From Streptomyces sp. HPF1205 (GTDB lineage Bacteria; Actinomycetota; Actinomycetes; Streptomycetales; Streptomycetaceae), in the NCBI RefSeq assembly GCF_020400825.1, contig NZ_JAINVH010000042.1, forward strand, positions 1 through 64,000: DNA of 64,000 bases, in the 5' to 3' direction. Shown in pieces: positions 37,401 through 45,029 of the stretch; the first letter of the stretch is position 1; each line of letters starts with the position of its first letter. Position numbers and translations under genes: made by a program. The notes under the pieces are model-generated. The model searched no databases. It saw only the letters and a list, made by a program, of their open reading frames with translations, and was not told the DNA's origin.

Positions 37401-37991
37401 ATGACCGAAAAATCCGGATTCTCCTTCCCCCACACCCGCCGCAGCGTGGTCGCCGCGGCCGGAGGTGCTGGGCTGGCCGCGGTCCTCACCGCCTGCGGCG
37501 GCTCCGGCGACGACTCCTCCGGCTCGTCCGGCGCGTCCGCCGGCGGCACCAAGGCGCCCGCCGGCAGCCCGAGCGCCGCCGGCGGGAGCGGCGACACGAG
37601 CGGGAACGGCGACGCAAGCGGCTCGACCCCGGACAGCGGCGCCGGCGCCACGCCCGGGTCGGCGTCCGGGTCCGGGTCCGCGTCCGCGTCCGGGTCCGGC
37701 GGCGGGCCGGCTCTGGCGAAGACCTCGGAGATCCCGGTCGGCGGCGGCAAGGTCTTCGCCGATCAGAAGGTCGTGGTCACGCAGCCGACGGCGGGACGGT
37801 TCCAGGGGTTCTCGGCGGTCTGCACGCACCAGGGCTGCACGGTTTCCGACGTCTCGGGCGGCACCATCAACTGTCCCTGCCACGGCAGCAGGTTCCACGT
37901 GGCCGACGGGAGCGTGGCCGCCGGACCCGCGGTCTCGCCGCTGCCCTCGAAGCCGGTCAAGGTCTCGGGGAGCGAGATCACGCTGGCGTGA
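37401..37991 (+). CDS. Rieske [2Fe-2S] lipoprotein
   Basis: The 196-residue protein has a twin-arginine-like signal (HTRRSVVAAAGGAG) ending in the lipobox LTAC, then a Gly/Ser-rich linker of about 70 residues with SGSGSASASGSG-type repeats. The Rieske domain has both cluster motifs, CTHQGC and CPCHGSRF, each giving one Cys and one His. It is thus a Tat-exported, lipid-anchored iron-sulfur protein; Streptomyces has several, with electron-transfer roles not well defined. Either of two nearby ATG codons (37392, 37401) could start it. The 3' end overlaps the convergent LysR gene by 14 bp. Confidence 0.92.
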   Translation: MTEKSGFSFPHTRRSVVAAAGGAGLAAVLTACGGSGDDSSGSSGASAGGTKAPAGSPSAAGGSGDTSGNGDASGSTPDSGAGATPGSASGSGSASASGSGGGPALAKTSEIPVGGGKVFADQKVVVTQPTAGRFQGFSAVCTHQGCTVSDVSGGTINCPCHGSRFHVADGSVAAGPAVSPLPSKPVKVSGSEITLA

Positions 37992-38904
37992 CGGGCGCGG
38001 GCCCGGCGGCCCGGGCCGCGGACCGCCGCAGGGCCTCCACGGCGACGCGGATGGCCGGGCGGCGGTCCGCGTCCTCGCGCCACACGGCGTAGACGTGGCG
38101 GCGCATGGTGTCGCGGACGGGGGTGATGCGCACGCCGGCCGGCATGGGGTCGCGGCCCAGTCGCGGCATGACGGCGACGCCGAGGCCCGCGCCGACGAGC
38201 GCGAGGACGGTGGCGTGCTCCTCGGCGTGGTGCGCGATCCGCGGTTCGATGCCCTTGCCGCGCAGCGTGAACATCAGCCACTCGTGGCAGAAGCCGCCGT
38301 CGGGCCAGGTGATCCAGTCCTCGTCGGCGAGTTCGTCCAGCTCGACCTCGGGCCGGCCCTCCAGGCGGTGGCCCGCGGGCAGCGCGATGTCCACCACGTC
38401 GTCGAAGAGGGCCATTTTGGCCAGGCCGCCGGGCAGGGAGAGCGGTTTGTTGTACCAGTCGAGGACCACGGCCAGGTCGATGTCGCCCCGGGCCAGCCGG
38501 GCCAGCGACTCGCCGGGCTCCAGCTCGTGGACGACCGTGCGCAGGCCGGGATGGCCCTCGCGCAGCTCGTGCAGCGCGGCGGGGAACAGGCCGCGGACCG
38601 CCGTGGGGAAGGCCGCCGCCCGCAGTTCGCCGACGGCGGCCCCGCGGTGTGCCTCCAGGTCGGCGTGGGCGACCTCGACCAGGGACAGTATCCGTTCCGC
38701 GTGCCCGGACAGCAGCCGGCCCGCGTCGGTCAGTCGCACCCCGCGGCCGTTCCTGACCAGCAGCGGCTGCCCGGTCTCCCGCTCCAGCTTGGCCATCTGC
38801 TGCGAGACCGCGGACGTGGTGACGCTCAGCACGTCCGCCGCCGCGCTCACCGAGCCGTAGGTGTCGATGGCGTGCAGGATGCGCAGGCGCTCCAGACTCA
38901 ACAT
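37978..38904 (-). CDS. LysR-family transcriptional regulator
   Basis: The 308-residue protein has the LysR helix-turn-helix at the start (LRILHAIDTYGSVSAAADVL, TTSAVSQQMAKLERETGQPL) and a co-inducer domain with AFPTAVRGLFPAAL and GLGVAVMPRL. It is divergent from the EamA exporter gene 74 bp away and most likely controls that gene and itself. The effector is unknown. Confidence 0.92.
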   Translation of the reverse strand: MLSLERLRILHAIDTYGSVSAAADVLSVTTSAVSQQMAKLERETGQPLLVRNGRGVRLTDAGRLLSGHAERILSLVEVAHADLEAHRGAAVGELRAAAFPTAVRGLFPAALHELREGHPGLRTVVHELEPGESLARLARGDIDLAVVLDWYNKPLSLPGGLAKMALFDDVVDIALPAGHRLEGRPEVELDELADEDWITWPDGGFCHEWLMFTLRGKGIEPRIAHHAEEHATVLALVGAGLGVAVMPRLGRDPMPAGVRITPVRDTMRRHVYAVWREDADRRPAIRVAVEALRRSAARAAGPAPVTPA

Positions 38905-38906
38905 GT

Positions 38907-38943
38907 AAGCGATTCTACGTCGTCCGTGTACTAAATCTCGCTT
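38907..38943. promoter_or_regulatory. Inverted repeat in the LysR/EamA divergent region
   Basis: AAGCGA (38907-38912) and TCGCTT (38938-38943) form a widely spaced dyad in a locally AT-richer spacer. It is a candidate LysR binding region; the 25-bp spacing is wide for a single site and may join two half sites. Confidence 0.4.
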
Positions 38944-38978
38944 GTTCTACGAGGTCGGCGCGGTCCACTGTAGAGGGC

Positions 38979-40070
38979 ATGAGCGCCCCAGCCGAGAGCC
39001 GCGACCGCGCCGCGGTCCCATCCGTCCCCGCCGGGCCGGCCGAACCGGCGGCGGCAGCCGGTCCGGCCACCCCGGTCGAACCGGCCGTCCCGGCCGTGCC
39101 CGTCCCGGCCGTGCCCGTCGCGGCCGTCGCGGCCGAGCCGGTCGCGCCCGCGGCTCCCGCCGCCGCGTCCGTGTCCTCCGCGGTGCTGCGGATCGTGGAC
39201 TGGCGGATCCGCTTCGCCGCTCTCGGCCTGGTGTGGGGCTTCAGCTTCCTGTTCATGAAGGTGGGGAACGAGGCGTTCGCGCCCCTGCAGGTCACCCTCG
39301 GCCGCATGGTGTTCGGCACCGCGGTCCTGGCCACCGCGGTCGCGGTCAAGCGCGAGCGGCTGCCCAGGAGCCGACGCACCTGGCTGCATCTGATGGTCGC
39401 GGCCTTCCTGCTGAACTCGCTGCCGTTCACGCTCTTCGCGACCGCCGAGCAGACGATCCCCTCGATGCTCGCCGGGATATGCAACGCCGCCACACCGCTG
39501 TTCTCGATGCTGGTCTCGGTGATCGCGCTGTCGGAGGACCGGCCGTCGCGGCAGCGGATCGCGGGCGTCGGCATCGGCTTCATCGGTGTGCTGACGGTGC
39601 TGGGCGCCTGGCAGGGCTTCTCGGGAGAGGACCCGAAGGGCACGGCCATGGCGCTGACGGCGGCACTCAGTTACGCCGTCGGCTGGGCGTACGTCCGCCG
39701 CACCCTGTCCGGCAGCGGCAGTTCCAACCTGGCCATGTCGACGGGCCAGTTGTCGCTGGGCACCCTGCAACTGCTGCTGGTCACCCCGTTCTTCACCTCG
39801 ATGCCGACCACGTTCCCGGCGAAGTCCGTCCTGTCGGTGCTCGCCCTGGGCGCCCTGGGCACGGGCGTCGCCTTCCTGATCCAGTACGGCCTGGTCGCGG
39901 AGAAGGGGCCGACGATCGGGGCGATGGTCACCTATCTCATACCGATCGTGGCCACCGCGGCCGGTGTTCTGCTGCTGGGCGAGTCCCTGAGCTGGAACGA
40001 ACCGGTGGGCGCGGTGGTCATCCTGGTCGGCGCGGCACTGACCCAGCGGCGGCCGAGAAGCGCCATGTGA
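38979..40070 (+). CDS. EamA/DMT-family transporter
   Basis: The 363-residue protein starts with a Pro/Ala/Val-rich cytoplasmic stretch of about 65 residues (repeats of PAVPVPAVPVAAV type). Ten membrane helices in two EamA repeats follow, for example LGLVWGFSFLFMKVGNEAF and ALSYAVGWAYVRRTL. The second repeat ends LIPIVATAAGVLLLGESLSW. Such drug/metabolite transporters export amino acids or other small metabolites. TGTAGAG ends just before the ATG and there is no Shine-Dalgarno, suggesting a leaderless mRNA. The divergent LysR gene is the likely regulator. Confidence 0.9.
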   Translation: MSAPAESRDRAAVPSVPAGPAEPAAAAGPATPVEPAVPAVPVPAVPVAAVAAEPVAPAAPAAASVSSAVLRIVDWRIRFAALGLVWGFSFLFMKVGNEAFAPLQVTLGRMVFGTAVLATAVAVKRERLPRSRRTWLHLMVAAFLLNSLPFTLFATAEQTIPSMLAGICNAATPLFSMLVSVIALSEDRPSRQRIAGVGIGFIGVLTVLGAWQGFSGEDPKGTAMALTAALSYAVGWAYVRRTLSGSGSSNLAMSTGQLSLGTLQLLLVTPFFTSMPTTFPAKSVLSVLALGALGTGVAFLIQYGLVAEKGPTIGAMVTYLIPIVATAAGVLLLGESLSWNEPVGAVVILVGAALTQRRPRSAM

Positions 40071-40074
40071 CGGT

Positions 40075-41406
40075 TCAGCCGAACCGCCCGGCGCGGGCCG
40101 GCCGGAGGACGTCCGCGACCGCTTCGGCCAGCCGGGGGATGTCGGCCCGGGTGAGCGGGGAGACCGTGATGCGGATCCCCGGCGCCGAGCGGACCCGGAA
40201 CCGGGCGCCGGGCGCCACCGCCCAGCCGTGCTGCAGCAGCCCCGCCACCGCTCCGGTCTCGTCGCCGACCGGCACCCAGACGTTCATGCCACTGCGGCCG
40301 TGAGCGGGTACGCCGTGCTCGGCGAGGGCGCGGATGAGCGCCTCACGGCGCTCGCCGTAGGCACGGGCGGTGGCGGCCGGGTCCACCGCGCCCTGGGTCC
40401 ACAAGTGGACGAGGGTGCGCTGCAGCAGGTGGCTGACCCAGCCGGCGCCGAGCCGGTGGCGGCCGCGGACCCGGTCGACGGTGACGGGGTCGCCGGTGTA
40501 GAGGGCGAGCCTGAGGTCGGGGCCGTACGCCTTGGCGACCGAGCGGACGAGCGCCCATTTCTCGGTGGCCGCCGACAGGCAGTGCAGGGGCTGCTCCACC
40601 AGGCCGTGGACGTGGTCGTCGTCGATGACCAGGACTTGGGGGTGCGCGGCGAGCAGGTCCCGCAGTTCCCGGGCGCGGACGGCGGACAGCGCCGCGCCGG
40701 TGGGGTTCTGTCCGCGATCGGTGACGACCAGGGCGCGGGCGCCCCCGGCCAGCGCGCGGGCGACCTCCGAGGGGCGCGGGCCCTCGTCGTCCACGGCGAC
40801 CGGCACCGCGCGCAGCCCCATGGCGGGGACCAGGTCGAGCACGCTGCCCCAGCCCGGGTCCTCCACGGCGACCGCGTCACCCGGTCGCAGATGGGCGGCC
40901 AGCACCCGTTCGATGGCGTCGAGGGAACCGGAGGTGATGCCGACCGGACCGGCCGGCACACCGTCGGCGTCCAGTGCGGCGCGGGCCAGCCGGCTCAACT
41001 CCGGGTCCACCGGCGGCTGTCCGTACAGGCCTGGCGAGCGCTCGTGATGGGCGGCGGCGTCGGCGAGGGCGGCGGTCAGCGAGGGCAGCAGCGCGGTGTC
41101 GGGGTTGCCGGCGGACAGGTCGCGCACGCCGGGCGGCACCTCGATGCGGATCTCGTCGCGGGGCGTGGTGGCCGGCCGCGAGCGCACCCGGCTGCCCCGG
41201 CGGCCCGCGGTCTCGATCACCCCGCGGTCGCGCAGCAGCCGGTAGGCGGCGGCCACGGTGTTGGGGTTGACGTCCAGGTCGCGGGCCAGCTCCCGCAGGG
41301 GCGGCAGGGCGTCGCCCGGCCGCAGGGCGCCCGCGCCCACCGCCGCTTCGACGCCGGCCGCAATTGCCGATGCGCCCCGACCAACGATCCGATACTCTCC
41401 TAGCAC
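40075..41406 (-). CDS. MocR/PdxR-type GntR regulator with aminotransferase domain
   Basis: The 443-residue protein has an N-terminal GntR winged helix (ALRPGDALPPLRELARDLDV, NPNTVAAAYRLLRDRGVIE) fused to a fold-type I aminotransferase domain. The PLP lysine is in SVAKAYGPDLRLAL and the cofactor aspartate in VTDRGQNPTGAAL and VIDDDHVHGL regions. MocR proteins such as PdxR sense pyridoxal phosphate. The divergent gene encodes a pyridoxamine-phosphate-oxidase-like protein, so vitamin B6 control is a plausible role. The GTG at 41406 lies 7 bp after a CATAAT -10, indicating a leaderless transcript. Confidence 0.92.
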   Translation of the reverse strand: MLGEYRIVGRGASAIAAGVEAAVGAGALRPGDALPPLRELARDLDVNPNTVAAAYRLLRDRGVIETAGRRGSRVRSRPATTPRDEIRIEVPPGVRDLSAGNPDTALLPSLTAALADAAAHHERSPGLYGQPPVDPELSRLARAALDADGVPAGPVGITSGSLDAIERVLAAHLRPGDAVAVEDPGWGSVLDLVPAMGLRAVPVAVDDEGPRPSEVARALAGGARALVVTDRGQNPTGAALSAVRARELRDLLAAHPQVLVIDDDHVHGLVEQPLHCLSAATEKWALVRSVAKAYGPDLRLALYTGDPVTVDRVRGRHRLGAGWVSHLLQRTLVHLWTQGAVDPAATARAYGERREALIRALAEHGVPAHGRSGMNVWVPVGDETGAVAGLLQHGWAVAPGARFRVRSAPGIRITVSPLTRADIPRLAEAVADVLRPARAGRFG

Positions 41407-41413
41407 AAAACCG

Positions 41414-41442
41414 ATTATGCACTAGTTCAAAGGACGTGTCAC
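41414..41442 (-). promoter_or_regulatory. Promoter of the MocR gene inside the 36-bp divergent region
   Basis: On the minus strand GTGACA (41437-41442) and CATAAT (41414-41419) are 17 bp apart. The -35 lies directly against the start codon of the opposite PNPOx-like gene, whose own AAAGGA ribosome-binding site is embedded here. MocR binding would affect both genes. Confidence 0.65.
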
Positions 41443-42126
41443 ATGGCTGCCGTGTCGCCCGCCGCCGATCCGCCCGCCTACCCGTCCACGGACCGCACCG
41501 TCCCGACCCGCGCCCGCGAACGCGCCTCGTACGACCGCGAACTCGTGCACGCCGTCCTCGACGAGGGGTACGTCTGCCACCTGGGATTCGTGCGCGACGG
41601 GGCGCCGGTCGTCCTGCCGACGCTCTACGCGCGGTCCGGGGAGCGGCTGTACGTGCACGGCTCGACGGGGTCCAGGCCGCTGCGCGGCGCCGGCGCCGGC
41701 GAGGGGCTGCCGGTCTGCCTGACCGTGACCCATGTCGACGGGCTGGTGCTGGCCAAGTCCGCCTTCCACCACTCCGTGAACTACCGCTCGGTCGTCGTCC
41801 ACGGCATCGCGTACCAGGTCACCGACCCCGAGGAGCGGGCGCGGGCCCTCGACGCGATCGTGGAGCAGGCGGTGCCCGGCCGGTCCGCCGACTCGCGCCG
41901 GGCGAACGCCAAGGAACTGGCGAAGACCGCGGTCGTCCGGCTCGACCTGCGGGAGGTGTCCGCCAAGGCGCGCACCGGCGGTCCCAACGACGAGCCGGAG
42001 GACCTCGCCCTCCCCCACTGGTCCGGGGTCGTCCCGGTCACGAGGGCCTACGGCGACCCGGTTCCGGCCGACGACCTCGACCCTTCCGTACCGCTGCCGG
42101 ACTATCTGCCCCGGCCGCGCCCGTAG
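41443..42126 (+). CDS. Pyridoxamine 5'-phosphate oxidase-like FMN-binding protein
   Basis: The 227-residue split-barrel flavoprotein-like protein has [69 protein letters not shown] (quoted across its beta strands) and a C-terminal [10 protein letters not shown]. This matches the pyridoxamine 5'-phosphate oxidase family of small FMN or heme-binding proteins (MSMEG-type), not classical PdxH. AAAGGA precedes the ATG by 9 bp. The divergent MocR regulator gene makes a link with vitamin B6 or FMN chemistry likely. Confidence 0.85.
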
Positions 42127-42157
42127 GTGCGCGGGTCGGCCGCCCGCGCCCCCGGCC

Positions 42158-42361
42158 CACCTCCGTCCAGGCCGGGGCGGCGACGGAAGCGAGCAGCACC
42201 ACCGCGCCGGCCACCGCGCCCGCCGTCAGCCGCTCGCCGAGCAGCGTCACGGCGAGGACGCCGGCGGACACGGGCTCCGTCACGGCGACGACCGCGACCG
42301 TCGTCGCCCTGAGCACGGCCGCTCCGGCGAAGTACAGCCCGTACGCGAGCGCCTGGGTCCC
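42158..42361 (-). pseudogene. Remnant of a second EamA transporter (last three helices)
   Basis: Between the PNPOx-like gene and the EamA gene, the minus strand encodes [17 protein letters not shown], then [20 protein letters not shown] and [16 protein letters not shown]. This is the unmistakable C-terminal end of an EamA repeat (GLY, EPV, LLGE landmarks). It is in a different frame from the neighbouring complete EamA gene, which already has its own full second repeat. No start or N-terminal part is present. It looks like the left-over end of a deleted paralogue. Confidence 0.6.
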
Positions 42362-42417
42362 GCGTCCGTGGCCGCTCGCCCGCGTGGGCGCTCGTTCCGC
42401 CCGGACCGCGGCGGTTT

Positions 42418-43500
42418 CTACGGGGCCGCTCCCGCTGCCCCGCTGTCCGCCGGGCGGGGGCCCGGCGGCCCGGGCTCCGGGCCGCCGCCAGGCGTCGCGA
42501 TGCCCCCGGCACCGGGCAGTGCCTCCGCCGCGGAGCGCGCGACCGTCCTGGGCGCCGACGACGAGGACGCGGACGCGGACGCGGTCTGCGCCACGAACGC
42601 GCCGGCCAGCACGAGCAGTCCGCCCAGGATCTGGGCGAGGCCCAGGTGTTCGCCGAGCAGGACCCACGCGAGCACGGTGCCGACCACCGCCTCGACGCAG
42701 GCGACGACGCCCGCGACCTGCGGGGTGAGCCGCCGGACGGCGACCACACCGGTGAGGTAGGCGACGACGGTGCAGACCAGGACGAGCCAGCCGACCAGGA
42801 GCGGCGCCGGCACGTCGCGGCCGCCGAGCGCCGCCTGGTGGGTCACGGTGTGCCAGGGGATCCGCCAGGGCCTGGCGAGGGCGGTGAGCACGACGGCGCC
42901 GACCAGCAGACCGTGGGCGATGACCGCGACGGGATCGGGCGCCTCGTCCTCCTGGGCGCCGTGGTCGGCGAGGACGAAGTAGGCGACCTGGCAGCAGGCG
43001 GCGCCGAAGGCGAAGAGCAGCCCGAGCGGATCGAAGGCCGACCCCGACCAGATCTGGACGACGCTCGCCATGCCGGTGACGGCCAGCACCACGCCGGCGG
43101 CCGCGGCGGGGCTGACCGGCCGGCGCTGCACGAACCTGACCCAGCCCAGCAGCAGTGCGGGCCCGAGGTATTCCACCAGGATGGCCACGCCGACGGGGAC
43201 GCGGGCGATGGCCGCGAAGTACAGCCCCTGGCACCCGGCGACGCCGAGCAGTCCGAAGCCGAGGACGAGGCCGGGCCGGAGCCTGGGAAGTGTGCGGTGC
43301 CGCAGGGCCACCGGCAGCAGGACGAGCGCCGCGCCCGTGACCCGCATCCACACCACGGACAGCGGGTCGGGACCGGCCTCGATCAGCGGCTTGGCCACGA
43401 CTCCTGAGCCGCCGAAGGCGACCGCCGACGCCAGGGCGAGCCCGAGGCCCGCCCGTTCCCGGCCACCGGCCGGCCGCTCCTGTGCCCGGCTCGTTCGCAT
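42418..43500 (-). CDS. EamA/DMT-family transporter
   Basis: The 360-residue protein has ten membrane helices in two EamA repeats: [39 protein letters not shown] and [17 protein letters not shown] in the first; [20 protein letters not shown] and [20 protein letters not shown] in the second. A Ser/Ala/Gly/Pro-rich tail of about 50 residues follows. It would export a small metabolite. The start ATG at 43500 has no clear ribosome-binding site. The gene ends 56 bp upstream of a fragment of another EamA protein. Confidence 0.88.
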
Positions 43501-43531
43501 CAGGTCATGATGCCAAGCCGCGACAGTACCG

Positions 43532-44095
43532 TCACCCCCGATAGCGGCTGACATCCCCGGGGCCGCCCGGGGCCGGCTCGATGCCCGCGGCCCGCAGTAC
43601 CTCCACCGCCCGGCACTTCGGGTCGGCGGCGAGCGCGTGCAGGAGGTCGATGCCGTCGGCCCGGGCACGGCCGTGCCGCCTGGCGCCGGCCATGGCGGCG
43701 CGCACGGCTGCGGCCGCCGCGGGGCTCCAGCCGGGCGCGGCGCCCGTCACGGCGGGCAGCGAACCCGAGTCCTCCACGGACCCCGACCACCGCAGCCCGT
43801 AGCCGATGCTGCGCTGGACGAGGTAGCCGAGCACCCGGGCGATCCGGCCGGTGCCGGCGTCGCACGCCTCGCGGGCCGCCGGATCGCGCTCCAGCAGCGA
43901 GTGCAGCAGATGGGCGGTGTCGACCTGCCGGTCGCCGTCGCGGGTGGCGCGCCGCCGCGCGTCCGCCGCCACGGCGCGCACCTCTACCGTGAGCCGCGGG
44001 TCGTCCGCCAGGTGGTTCGGATCGGGCAGGGGGGCCGGGTCGGACAGGTCGTCCGGGTGGGGCGGCGGTCGGCTGCTGCTGTACACGGCCTCCAC
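43532..44095 (-). CDS. Stand-alone Clp N-terminal-domain protein
   Basis: The 187-residue protein carries two Clp-N repeats: VDTAHLLHSLLERDPAAREACDAG around residues 57-80, and ADGIDLLHALAADPKCRAVEVLRAAGIEP around 145-175 (quoted by key parts LLHALAADPK). There is no AAA+ module or ClpC/ClpB tail. Such proteins are common in actinobacteria and are thought to bind substrates or adaptors of Clp proteases; direct evidence is scarce. The GTG at 44095 is used; alternatives cannot be excluded. It may be cotranscribed with the EamA exporter 31 bp downstream. Confidence 0.82.
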   Translation of the reverse strand: MEAVYSSSRPPPHPDDLSDPAPLPDPNHLADDPRLTVEVRAVAADARRRATRDGDRQVDTAHLLHSLLERDPAAREACDAGTGRIARVLGYLVQRSIGYGLRWSGSVEDSGSLPAVTGAAPGWSPAAAAAVRAAMAGARRHGRARADGIDLLHALAADPKCRAVEVLRAAGIEPAPGGPGDVSRYRG

Positions 44096-44195
44096 CCCAT
44101 CAGACGGCGGCCGGTCCGCGCATCGGCTGAGCGGGGCATGTTCGCCTCCCCCCGGGGAAGGGCGGGACCGCGCCCGTCTCCTCCCCGGGGATGAG

Positions 44196-44900
44196 TCATG
44201 GCCACAGCAACGTCCGGGTCCAGGCCCGGCCCTCGCGGACGTACCGCACCCGGGTGTGGAAGGGGTCGGCGCGTCCCTGGAAGAACTCCGCCTCCCGCGC
44301 GCGCAGCCGGTAGACGGTGTGCGTGTCCGGTACCCGGTCGGGCTCGGCGGCCACCAGCGCGCGGGCGGCCCGGAAGGCGCGGTCGTACTCCTGTGTTCCG
44401 GTCAGGGGCTCGCTGACGGTGCCGGTGAAGGCCGCCGCCCTGGCCGCCTCGCTGCGGCCGAGGAAGTCCCGGCGGACGGCGTCCTCGCCCAGCGCCGTCA
44501 CCGGTCCTGCCATCCGGATCTGCCTGCCGTGCGCGGGCCAGTACCAGGTCAGCGCGGCGCGTGCGTTGGCCGCCAGGTCGCGGCCCTTGCGGGCGCGGGC
44601 GTCGGAGGCGAAGACGAAGGCGCAGTCGGCGCTGTCGATGCCGCGCAGGATGAGCACCCGGGCGCTGGGCTCGCCGTCCGCGTCCGCCGTACTGAGCGTC
44701 ATGGTCTGCGGCTCGGGCACACCCGCTTCCAGGGCGTCGGTGAGCCATGCCGCGAACAGCGGGCCCGGGCTGTCCGGTGCCGCCGCCGGGTCGAACTCCG
44801 GCAGCGGCCCGGCCAGCACGGGCGCGGCCCGCAGCCGCGCCAGCAGTTCCTCGTCGCCGGGAACCGCGTCGCCGGACCGCGTACCTCCGTGTGCGTGCAT
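44196..44900 (-). CDS. PdxH-like pyridoxamine/pyridoxine 5'-phosphate oxidase family protein
   Basis: The 234-residue protein follows the PdxH plan: N-terminal helix LFAAWLTDALEAGVPEPQTM, FMN-binding MTLSTADADGEPSARVLILRGID (quoted by the ARVLIL strand), FASDARARKGRDLAANARAAL, LTWYWPAHGRQIRMAGPV, and a C-terminal VYRLRAREAEFFQGR. The terminal ERL-type motif of true PdxH is not evident (it ends WTRTLLWP), so it may act on another substrate. GGAGAG directly precedes the ATG. It lies in the same neighbourhood as the MocR/PNPOx pair. Confidence 0.85.
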   Translation of the reverse strand: MHAHGGTRSGDAVPGDEELLARLRAAPVLAGPLPEFDPAAAPDSPGPLFAAWLTDALEAGVPEPQTMTLSTADADGEPSARVLILRGIDSADCAFVFASDARARKGRDLAANARAALTWYWPAHGRQIRMAGPVTALGEDAVRRDFLGRSEAARAAAFTGTVSEPLTGTQEYDRAFRAARALVAAEPDRVPDTHTVYRLRAREAEFFQGRADPFHTRVRYVREGRAWTRTLLWP

Positions 44901-45029
44901 TTCTCTCCGCCTCCCGAACCGCGCCTTCGCGCCCTCACGCCCTCGGCACCTCGGCACCTCGCTGCTTCACGCCGGCCGCACCGCCGCACCGCCCCAGCCG
45001 TACCACCCCCGGCCGCCCCCGCGCGAACG

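Follow-up and report, generated by a model that had tools for sequence, protein, structure and literature searches.

Putative co-repression from a tandem operator over the facing promoters of a MocR-type regulator gene and a PF12900 gene in a streptomycete

We analysed a divergent gene pair in a stretch of 64,000 nucleotides from Streptomyces sp. HPF1205 (assembly GCF_020400825.1, contig NZ_JAINVH010000042.1, positions 1 to 64,000), hereafter called the window. Its best named relatives, Actinacidiphila and Streptomyces, point to a streptomycete origin. The minus-strand gene (40075-41406) encodes a MocR-type regulator of 443 amino acids with a GTG start, combining a GntR helix-turn-helix with a fold-type-I aminotransferase domain. 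The plus-strand gene (41443-42126) encodes a PF12900 (Pyridox_ox_2) protein of 227 amino acids, which is probably a heme-flavin split-barrel protein of the Anf3/MSMEG_4975/Nim type. A gap of 36 base pairs (bp; 41407-41442) separates them. Both reading frames, their domains and the gap were found as described in the original prediction, which spoke of a MocR regulator with a domain binding pyridoxal 5'-phosphate (PLP), 36 bp from a gene resembling pyridoxine-phosphate oxidase genes.

The reading that we favour, and hold to be rather probable, is that MocR represses both genes from a shared operator lying over facing promoters, and that the target is a heme-flavin protein. Of this, the gene order, the conservation of promoters and operator, the uniqueness of the operator in the genome and the conserved heme-contact residues were observed; the start sites, MocR binding, the sign of regulation, heme binding and the PLP or amino-compound ligand are predicted.

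Control region between the two genes

A first comparison comprised 117 loci, seven of which (L002-L008) are further MocR-like loci from the window's own genome. The 110 orthologous loci consist of the window's own, 29 loci of the same genus, taken as the best from a search of 35 genomes, and the best 80 of 469 related genome-contig loci. Five pairs represent the same region, leaving 105 distinct loci. The PF12900 gene is divergent from MocR in 110/110 orthologous loci (105 distinct), with match start points at most 296 bp apart.

The MocR promoter on the minus strand has the -10 element CATAAT (41414-41419), the last base of which lies 7 nucleotides before the GTG, and the -35 element GTGACA (41437-41442; mostly TTGCGN or TGGCGN in relatives). 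With 10 of 12 matches and a spacer of 17 bp, this is the only sigma-70-like promoter in 41300-41520, against a mean of 0.0 in 50 shuffles. Across the 110 loci the -10 reads CATAAT in 81, CATACT in 17 and CATAGT in 7, with 5 others. As had been claimed, the -35 directly abuts the start codon of the PF12900 gene (ATG at 41443), and it is more than a chance element. Its T.G signature was tested in 99 distinct loci, that is, the 110 without five that could not be anchored and six duplicates. Anchored on the -10, the T.G was found at the 17-bp spacer in 74 of 83 loci with the usual PF12900 start and in 10 of 16 with a displaced start; at other spacers the highest counts were 9/83 and 3/16 (the latter at 18 bp), and for displaced starts the remaining eleven spacers gave at most 2/16. 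Since the T.G keeps its spacing to the -10 even where the PF12900 start is displaced, the -35 belongs to the MocR promoter and not to the start codon.

Codon 1 of MocR is GTG in all 105 distinct loci. A leaderless mRNA is expected from a -10 ending 7 nucleotides before the GTG, and the MocR mRNA is thus probably leaderless, with a start near 41406. In Streptomyces coelicolor leaderless mRNAs arise from 21% of primary start sites (PMC4895711). The leaderless start claimed in the original prediction thus gains support, as a probable one, from the conserved -10 and GTG, and its interlocked promoters, forming one control region for both genes, are supported by conservation across the loci.

On the plus strand we place the -10 of the PF12900 gene at TACTCT (41393-41398), within MocR codons 3-5. 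The pattern TAnnnT occurs at this offset in 105/105 distinct loci, while the next best offset reaches 4/105. A weak putative -35, ATGCGC ([A/C]TGCGC), lies 17 bp from it at 41370-41375. The Shine-Dalgarno sequence AAAGGA (41429-41434) stands 8 nucleotides before the ATG, and its columns 41431-41434 are mostly (A/T)GGA in relatives. For S. coelicolor the reported -10 is TANNNT, the -35 is less conserved (NTGACC) and 5' leaders peak at 30-39 nucleotides (PMC4895711). The leader of the PF12900 mRNA would be 38 nucleotides long, with its start near 41405. An alternative -10 at 41413-41418 was ruled out, as position 41413 is fully variable. The two putative start points, 41405 on the plus and 41406 on the minus strand, would lie about 1 bp apart, so that each promoter would transcribe across the other.

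In the orthologue comparison, columns 41393-41434 are strongly conserved, except for the free positions 41410-41413 and some single ones, and the block reads approximately TAnTCTCCTAGCACAAAnnnnAnTATGCACTAGTnCAA. It holds a predicted tandem operator, in which CTAGYRCAA occurs twice in a 22-bp register (about two helical turns) and which spans the MocR start codon. Site 1, CTAGCACAA, at 41400-41408 of the plus strand, contains the MocR GTG (41404-41406) together with codon 2 (CTA). Site 2, CTAGTTCAA (CTAGTGCAA in most relatives), follows 22 bp further on, at 41422-41430. Most relatives have the palindrome TGCACTAGTGCA overlapping site 2, which yields an inverted half-site at 41418-41425. Direct and/or inverted repeats spaced by helix turns are the structure expected of operators of the MocR subfamily, for which structure classes have been described (PMC5320631), and the predicted tandem sites with their overlapping inverted half-site agree with it.

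Codon usage in and near this block is unusual. Codon 2 of MocR is CTA in 103 of 103 loci with leucine (two further loci have ATA), against 0.2% of leucine codons elsewhere, and codon 3 is GGA in 102 of 102 loci with glycine, against a background of 7.7%. Codon 5 is TAT in 90/105 (background 6.5%) and codon 12, at the putative PF12900 -35, is GCA in 93/105 (2.8% of alanine codons elsewhere). The background was taken from the MocR codons from codon 41 on in the compared genes, and naive probabilities calculated in this way ignore relatedness. Rare codons fixed or nearly fixed at these four positions indicate a constraint on the DNA rather than on the protein.

Recurrence of the unit and of its operator

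At class level 246 genomes were sampled, and 61 had a MocR match at E<=1e-75. Forty-nine further loci were taken, 29 of them new from this sample and 20 from another search. Both genes are present in 32 of the 49, divergent in all 32, and 30 of these are new with respect to the first set. The remaining 17 include L156, where MocR faces a PF04299 gene, four loci facing pdxS (L176, L177, L178 and L180) and L175, a 51% identical MocR paralogue facing a transporter of the major facilitator superfamily, as well as the orthologue at L135 and loci that lack the operator layout.

We inspected 28 distant or paralogous loci for the operator layout and found it in 12. In eleven of these its distance from the MocR start equals that in the window, and the twelfth, L163, has a GTG in the same register. 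The GTG start is in the same place in all 12, the TAnnnT of the facing promoter in 11, a CATAAT or CATACT MocR -10 in nine and a TTG -35 in eight. The 51% MocR paralogue (G000:C166:262926-264212, which is L002; also L175 and L183) has kept the operator layout, the GTG start and the facing promoter elements. The operator thus recurs in other actinobacterial families, with its position unchanged with respect to the start of MocR.

In the window's own genome the tandem operator has one match with 0 mismatches; the other four have 3, and the reversed control gave 43. The original prediction had placed the pair in a vitamin B6 neighbourhood. That cluster was rejected as one regulon, as the PdxH-like gene, the exporters and the Clp_N gene showed no tandem operator in the genome-wide search. 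Searching with the single site TGCACTAGTGCAA at up to 2 mismatches gave 21 matches against 235 in the control, and this search gives no evidence of extra targets. The unit is probably self-contained, with a single target.

Allowing up to 2 mismatches, the 35 genus genomes gave 53 operator matches, at least one per genome (reversed control 71). Eight further operator-like sites were examined among these genomes. GNAT acetyltransferase genes follow such sites in 4 of the 35 genomes (G034, G013, G016 and G024, at L200, L201, L202 and L205). In G034, G013 and G016 the operators and genes are alike, and a TTGACG -35 overlaps the approach to site 2. A link of the GNAT genes to the MocR regulon is suggestive, given this recurrence and the presence of similar genes in published regulons. 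The GNAT gene has no close counterpart in the window's genome (best 33% identity). At L198, where the contig ends, the site precedes another start of the PF12900 type. The sequence at L199, L203 and L204 looks like the region upstream of the unit, and at L199 and L203 it is followed by PF12900-like frames that are short and apparently broken. As a separate observation, L200 and L205 have a TAnnnT about 7 nucleotides before a possible start codon, and these GNAT genes may be leaderless too.

Regulator and mode of control

The MocR protein carries PF00392 at residues 14-74 and PF00155 at residues 96-430. Lysine K292, identified by motif and by alignment to MppQ as the predicted PLP Schiff-base lysine, and R412 are kept in 39/39 aligned rows, the window's included. 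Among solved structures MocR matches aminotransferases, GabR and other GntR-type regulators. The closest NCBIfam model is PtsJ (NF012025; 395.4 bits, below the cut-off of 573), and PdxR (NF052282) gives 144.9 bits, below its cut-off of 320. PtsJ itself is a MocR protein that represses pdxK and has PLP as its effector (PMC12172467).

In the proposed mechanism a MocR dimer, presumably PLP-bound, would occupy the two tandem CTAG-type sites 22 bp apart, which would overlie the start points of the two face-to-face promoters. Binding would block both, giving autorepression together with repression of the PF12900 gene. A ligand would release MocR; obvious candidates are PLP and amino compounds able to form an aldimine. 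With their footprints overlapping, polymerases on the two promoters would also exclude each other. Relative to the putative PF12900 start the sites lie at about -5 to +3 and +17 to +25. Co-repression is favoured because site 2 falls into the spacer of the MocR promoter, site 1 overlies both predicted start points, and neither site lies before the putative PF12900 start. According to the original prediction, MocR binding would switch the two genes against each other; the operator geometry instead favours blocking of both, and polymerase occlusion would be a possible route to mutual exclusion.

Several points weigh against co-repression from a conserved unit. In MocR divergons the target is often under positive control (PMC5320631). 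Leaderless mRNAs of S. coelicolor prefer AUG (76.4%; PMC4895711), whereas MocR here starts with GUG. The PF12900 -35 is weak, and its conservation is limited to Streptomycetaceae. Sixteen of the 28 distant or paralogous loci are without the operator layout; several distant loci (L157-L159, L164 and L179) have no operator near the MocR start, and in four of them, L157-L159 and L164, a MocR of 57-60% identity has neither operator nor PF12900 match. The orthologue at L135 has the operator and no detectable PF12900 gene, and L161, L167 and L168 have kept the operator and not a good MocR -10. By number, the 18 further matches in the genus, which include some counted for both strands, are not in excess of the reversed control. 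Similarity between sites 1 and 2 is not distinctive alone, being 6-10 of 13 in the 12 operator-bearing loci and 1-9 in the other 16; as these ranges overlap, it is the fixed layout that carries weight.

The main rival is a classical divergon, in which MocR would repress its own gene while activating the PF12900 gene, switching the two oppositely. It agrees with the activation of divergent targets often found for MocR regulators and with the weak PF12900 -35, as activated promoters often have one, and since site 2 occupies the spacer of the MocR promoter, shutting off that promoter could by itself release the facing one. We nevertheless regard it as unlikely, since both sites lie at or downstream of the putative PF12900 start and not upstream of its -35, since the ~90 bases of MocR coding sequence scanned have no other TAnnnT in a conserved place, and since the closest model, PtsJ, is a repressor.

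The PF12900 protein and known systems

In sequence comparison with solved structures, the PF12900 protein comes closest to 6RK0 (188 bits with the alignment profile) and 4YBN (166 bits), followed by NimA-type and other flavin-binding proteins. An AlphaFold2 model of the protein has a mean pLDDT of 88.1, and 6RK0 (TM 0.79/0.83) and 4YBN were also best among the matches listed in the fold search, where no pyridoxine 5'-phosphate (PNP) oxidase was found among the best 50 of 403. By their titles these structures are flavocytochrome Anf3 (6RK0) and the flavin adenine dinucleotide (FAD) and heme binding protein MSMEG_4975 (4YBN). In Anf3 the heme is contacted by His70, Arg21 and Lys170 and sits at the position that PLP takes in PNP oxidase (PMC6579470). 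Heme binding is also reported for MSMEG_4975, via His62, and for Clostridioides difficile NimB (PMC10338468).

The residues were mapped onto Anf3 by sequence alignment with a chain offset of 2, adopted since it places each of the three contacts on a matching His, Arg or Lys. Among 135 distinct homologues the equivalents are kept in 134 (H72), 132 (R23) and 131 (K175). The departures are gaps at H72 (one) and R23 (three), and at K175 three arginines and one serine. H110 and W193 are kept in 135/135 and H109 in 134/135. F108-H109-H110-S111 align with the Anf3 loop Tyr103-Asn106 around the heme water, with H109-H110 on Asn104-Phe105, and H109-H110 may form a distal-pocket feature. At L156, where the operator is kept, the faced gene encodes a PF04299 protein, and the solved relatives of that family include the heme-bound PaiB, piperazate synthase and NohD. 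Against curated models at E<=0.001 the PF12900 product matched only NimABCDEF (19.5 bits, cut-off 260), with the pdxH models unmatched. Rather than a pyridoxine-phosphate oxidase, it is most likely a split-barrel redox protein with heme and flavin, like Anf3, MSMEG_4975 and the Nim proteins.

To the right of the PF12900 gene lie an EamA exporter (42418-43503), a Clp_N protein (43532-44095) and, on the minus strand, a PdxH-like gene (44196-44957). All three neighbours named in the original prediction are therefore present, and they are only partly conserved as a unit. Of the 80 named loci, 75 had enough flank; the PF12900 gene is retained in 75 of these, the EamA gene to the right in 67 and the Clp_N gene in 61. 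The PdxH-like gene lies within 5 kb in 8 of the 75, several at 4.8-5.0 kb, and more may sit just beyond. Its product scores 126.1 bits against pdxH (TIGR00558; cut-off 180; 126.8 in the genome scan) and 137.3 against PhzG (cut-off 270), and passes the broader subfamily model NF004231 'pyridoxal 5'-phosphate synthase' (134.7, cut-off 129). Its best solved matches are, in this order, 4hmw, deposited as a pyridoxamine 5'-phosphate (PMP) oxidase (86 bits), PhzG (80.5) and 1nrg, a pyridoxine 5'-phosphate oxidase (74). Standing between PhzG and PdxH, it may encode a B6 enzyme. Genome-wide, a single pdxH match exceeds the cut-off (267.9 bits), and it is on another contig.

On the other side, within 37978-40070, a LysR regulator is divergent from a second EamA exporter, which is convergent with MocR and ends 4 bp from its end. 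This exporter is kept in 66/75 loci, against 8/75 for the PdxH-like gene. Positions 42152-42376 of the minus strand hold the remnant of an EamA (DMT) transporter with the C-terminal part alone left. The matching stretch sits in an open frame of 380 amino acids in the relative L038, and 68 sequences match the remnant, counting the window and its own copy L001.

A further rival is a true vitamin B6 unit of the PdxW/PdxQ type, with the PF12900 protein as a PNP/PMP oxidase and MocR sensing PLP to balance this activity. Suvorova and Rodionov (2016; PMC5320631) assigned pdxO genes, putative PNP oxidases, to PdxR, PdxW and PdxQ regulators. MocR relatives of 44-48% identity face pdxS, the PLP lysine is kept in all 39 aligned rows, and the GNAT genes behind operator-like sites resemble RimI/RimL members of the published pdxO regulons. 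We judge such a unit improbable, given the heme- and FAD-binding best relatives with Anf3 heme in the place of PLP, the retained heme contacts, the canonical pdxH elsewhere and the fold matches above. The vitamin B6 theme of the original prediction thus holds at the level of the regulator, where PtsJ is the closest model and relatives face pdxS, and is weak for the target; the PdxH-like gene has no operator. That these are ordinary close divergent genes, common as such pairs are in bacteria, with no shared regulator and conservation from protein coding alone, we consider very improbable in view of the rare synonymous codons, the near-invariant noncoding columns and the recurrence of the layout at loci from other families.

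In Escherichia coli the divergent genes bioA/bioB and argE/argCBH are driven by promoters that face each other across a single operator; BirA and ArgR are unrelated to MocR, and these systems are not known to have a leaderless regulator start inside the operator. Among the papers listed in our literature searches we recognised none on the facing promoters, the start codon in the operator, the cross-family layout or the heme-flavin reading of the target; the regulator may already be named in the supplements of PMC5320631. A more far-reaching reading, which we hold to be less likely than not, is that of a switch common among actinobacteria, in which a MocR repressor dependent on PLP controls a heme-flavin split-barrel oxidoreductase via a composite element made up of the tandem operator, both facing promoters and the leaderless regulator start codon inside the operator, and in which many 'pdxO' targets are heme-flavin enzymes. 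These would act on amino, N-hydroxy or nitro compounds sensed through the MocR PLP aldimine. If this is true, a set of MocR regulators filed under vitamin B6 metabolism would control heme-flavin redox enzymes instead, and the search for their ligands and substrates would be redirected. The DNA element is so compact and conserved that common laboratory Streptomyces strains allow a direct test of which way the regulation works, of the start point common to both genes and of leaderless initiation.

Compared with PtsJ-pdxK of Salmonella, the unit shares the MocR architecture and the closest curated model, PtsJ being the repressor of a B6 salvage gene with PLP as effector; unlike there, the score is below the cut-off, the target is a PF12900 gene and not pyridoxal kinase, and repression is predicted. 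The PdxR-pdxST divergons are resembled by L176, L177, L178 and L180, which have CTAG- or CATAG-core sequences nearby, whereas the unit has another target gene and operator sequence and its MocR forms a separate clade in the tree. Anf3, MSMEG_4975 and NimA-NimB share the best sequence and fold matches and the conserved His/Arg/Lys heme contacts of Anf3; they differ in that no nitrogenase or nitroimidazole context was seen here, heme being predicted from the sequence, and in that Anf3 Tyr22 aligns with A24. With the PdxW/PdxQ 'pdxO' regulons (PMC5320631) the unit has in common the MocR regulator, a regulon of few genes, a PPOX-family target, a direct-repeat operator and GNAT acetyltransferases as possible extra members, and it differs in its facing promoters and its heme-flavin-like target; 'Streptomyc' is absent from the main text of that paper. 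MocR-'pdxO' regulons and MocR divergons are already described there, and the present unit is a variant of the MocR-"pdxO" divergon.

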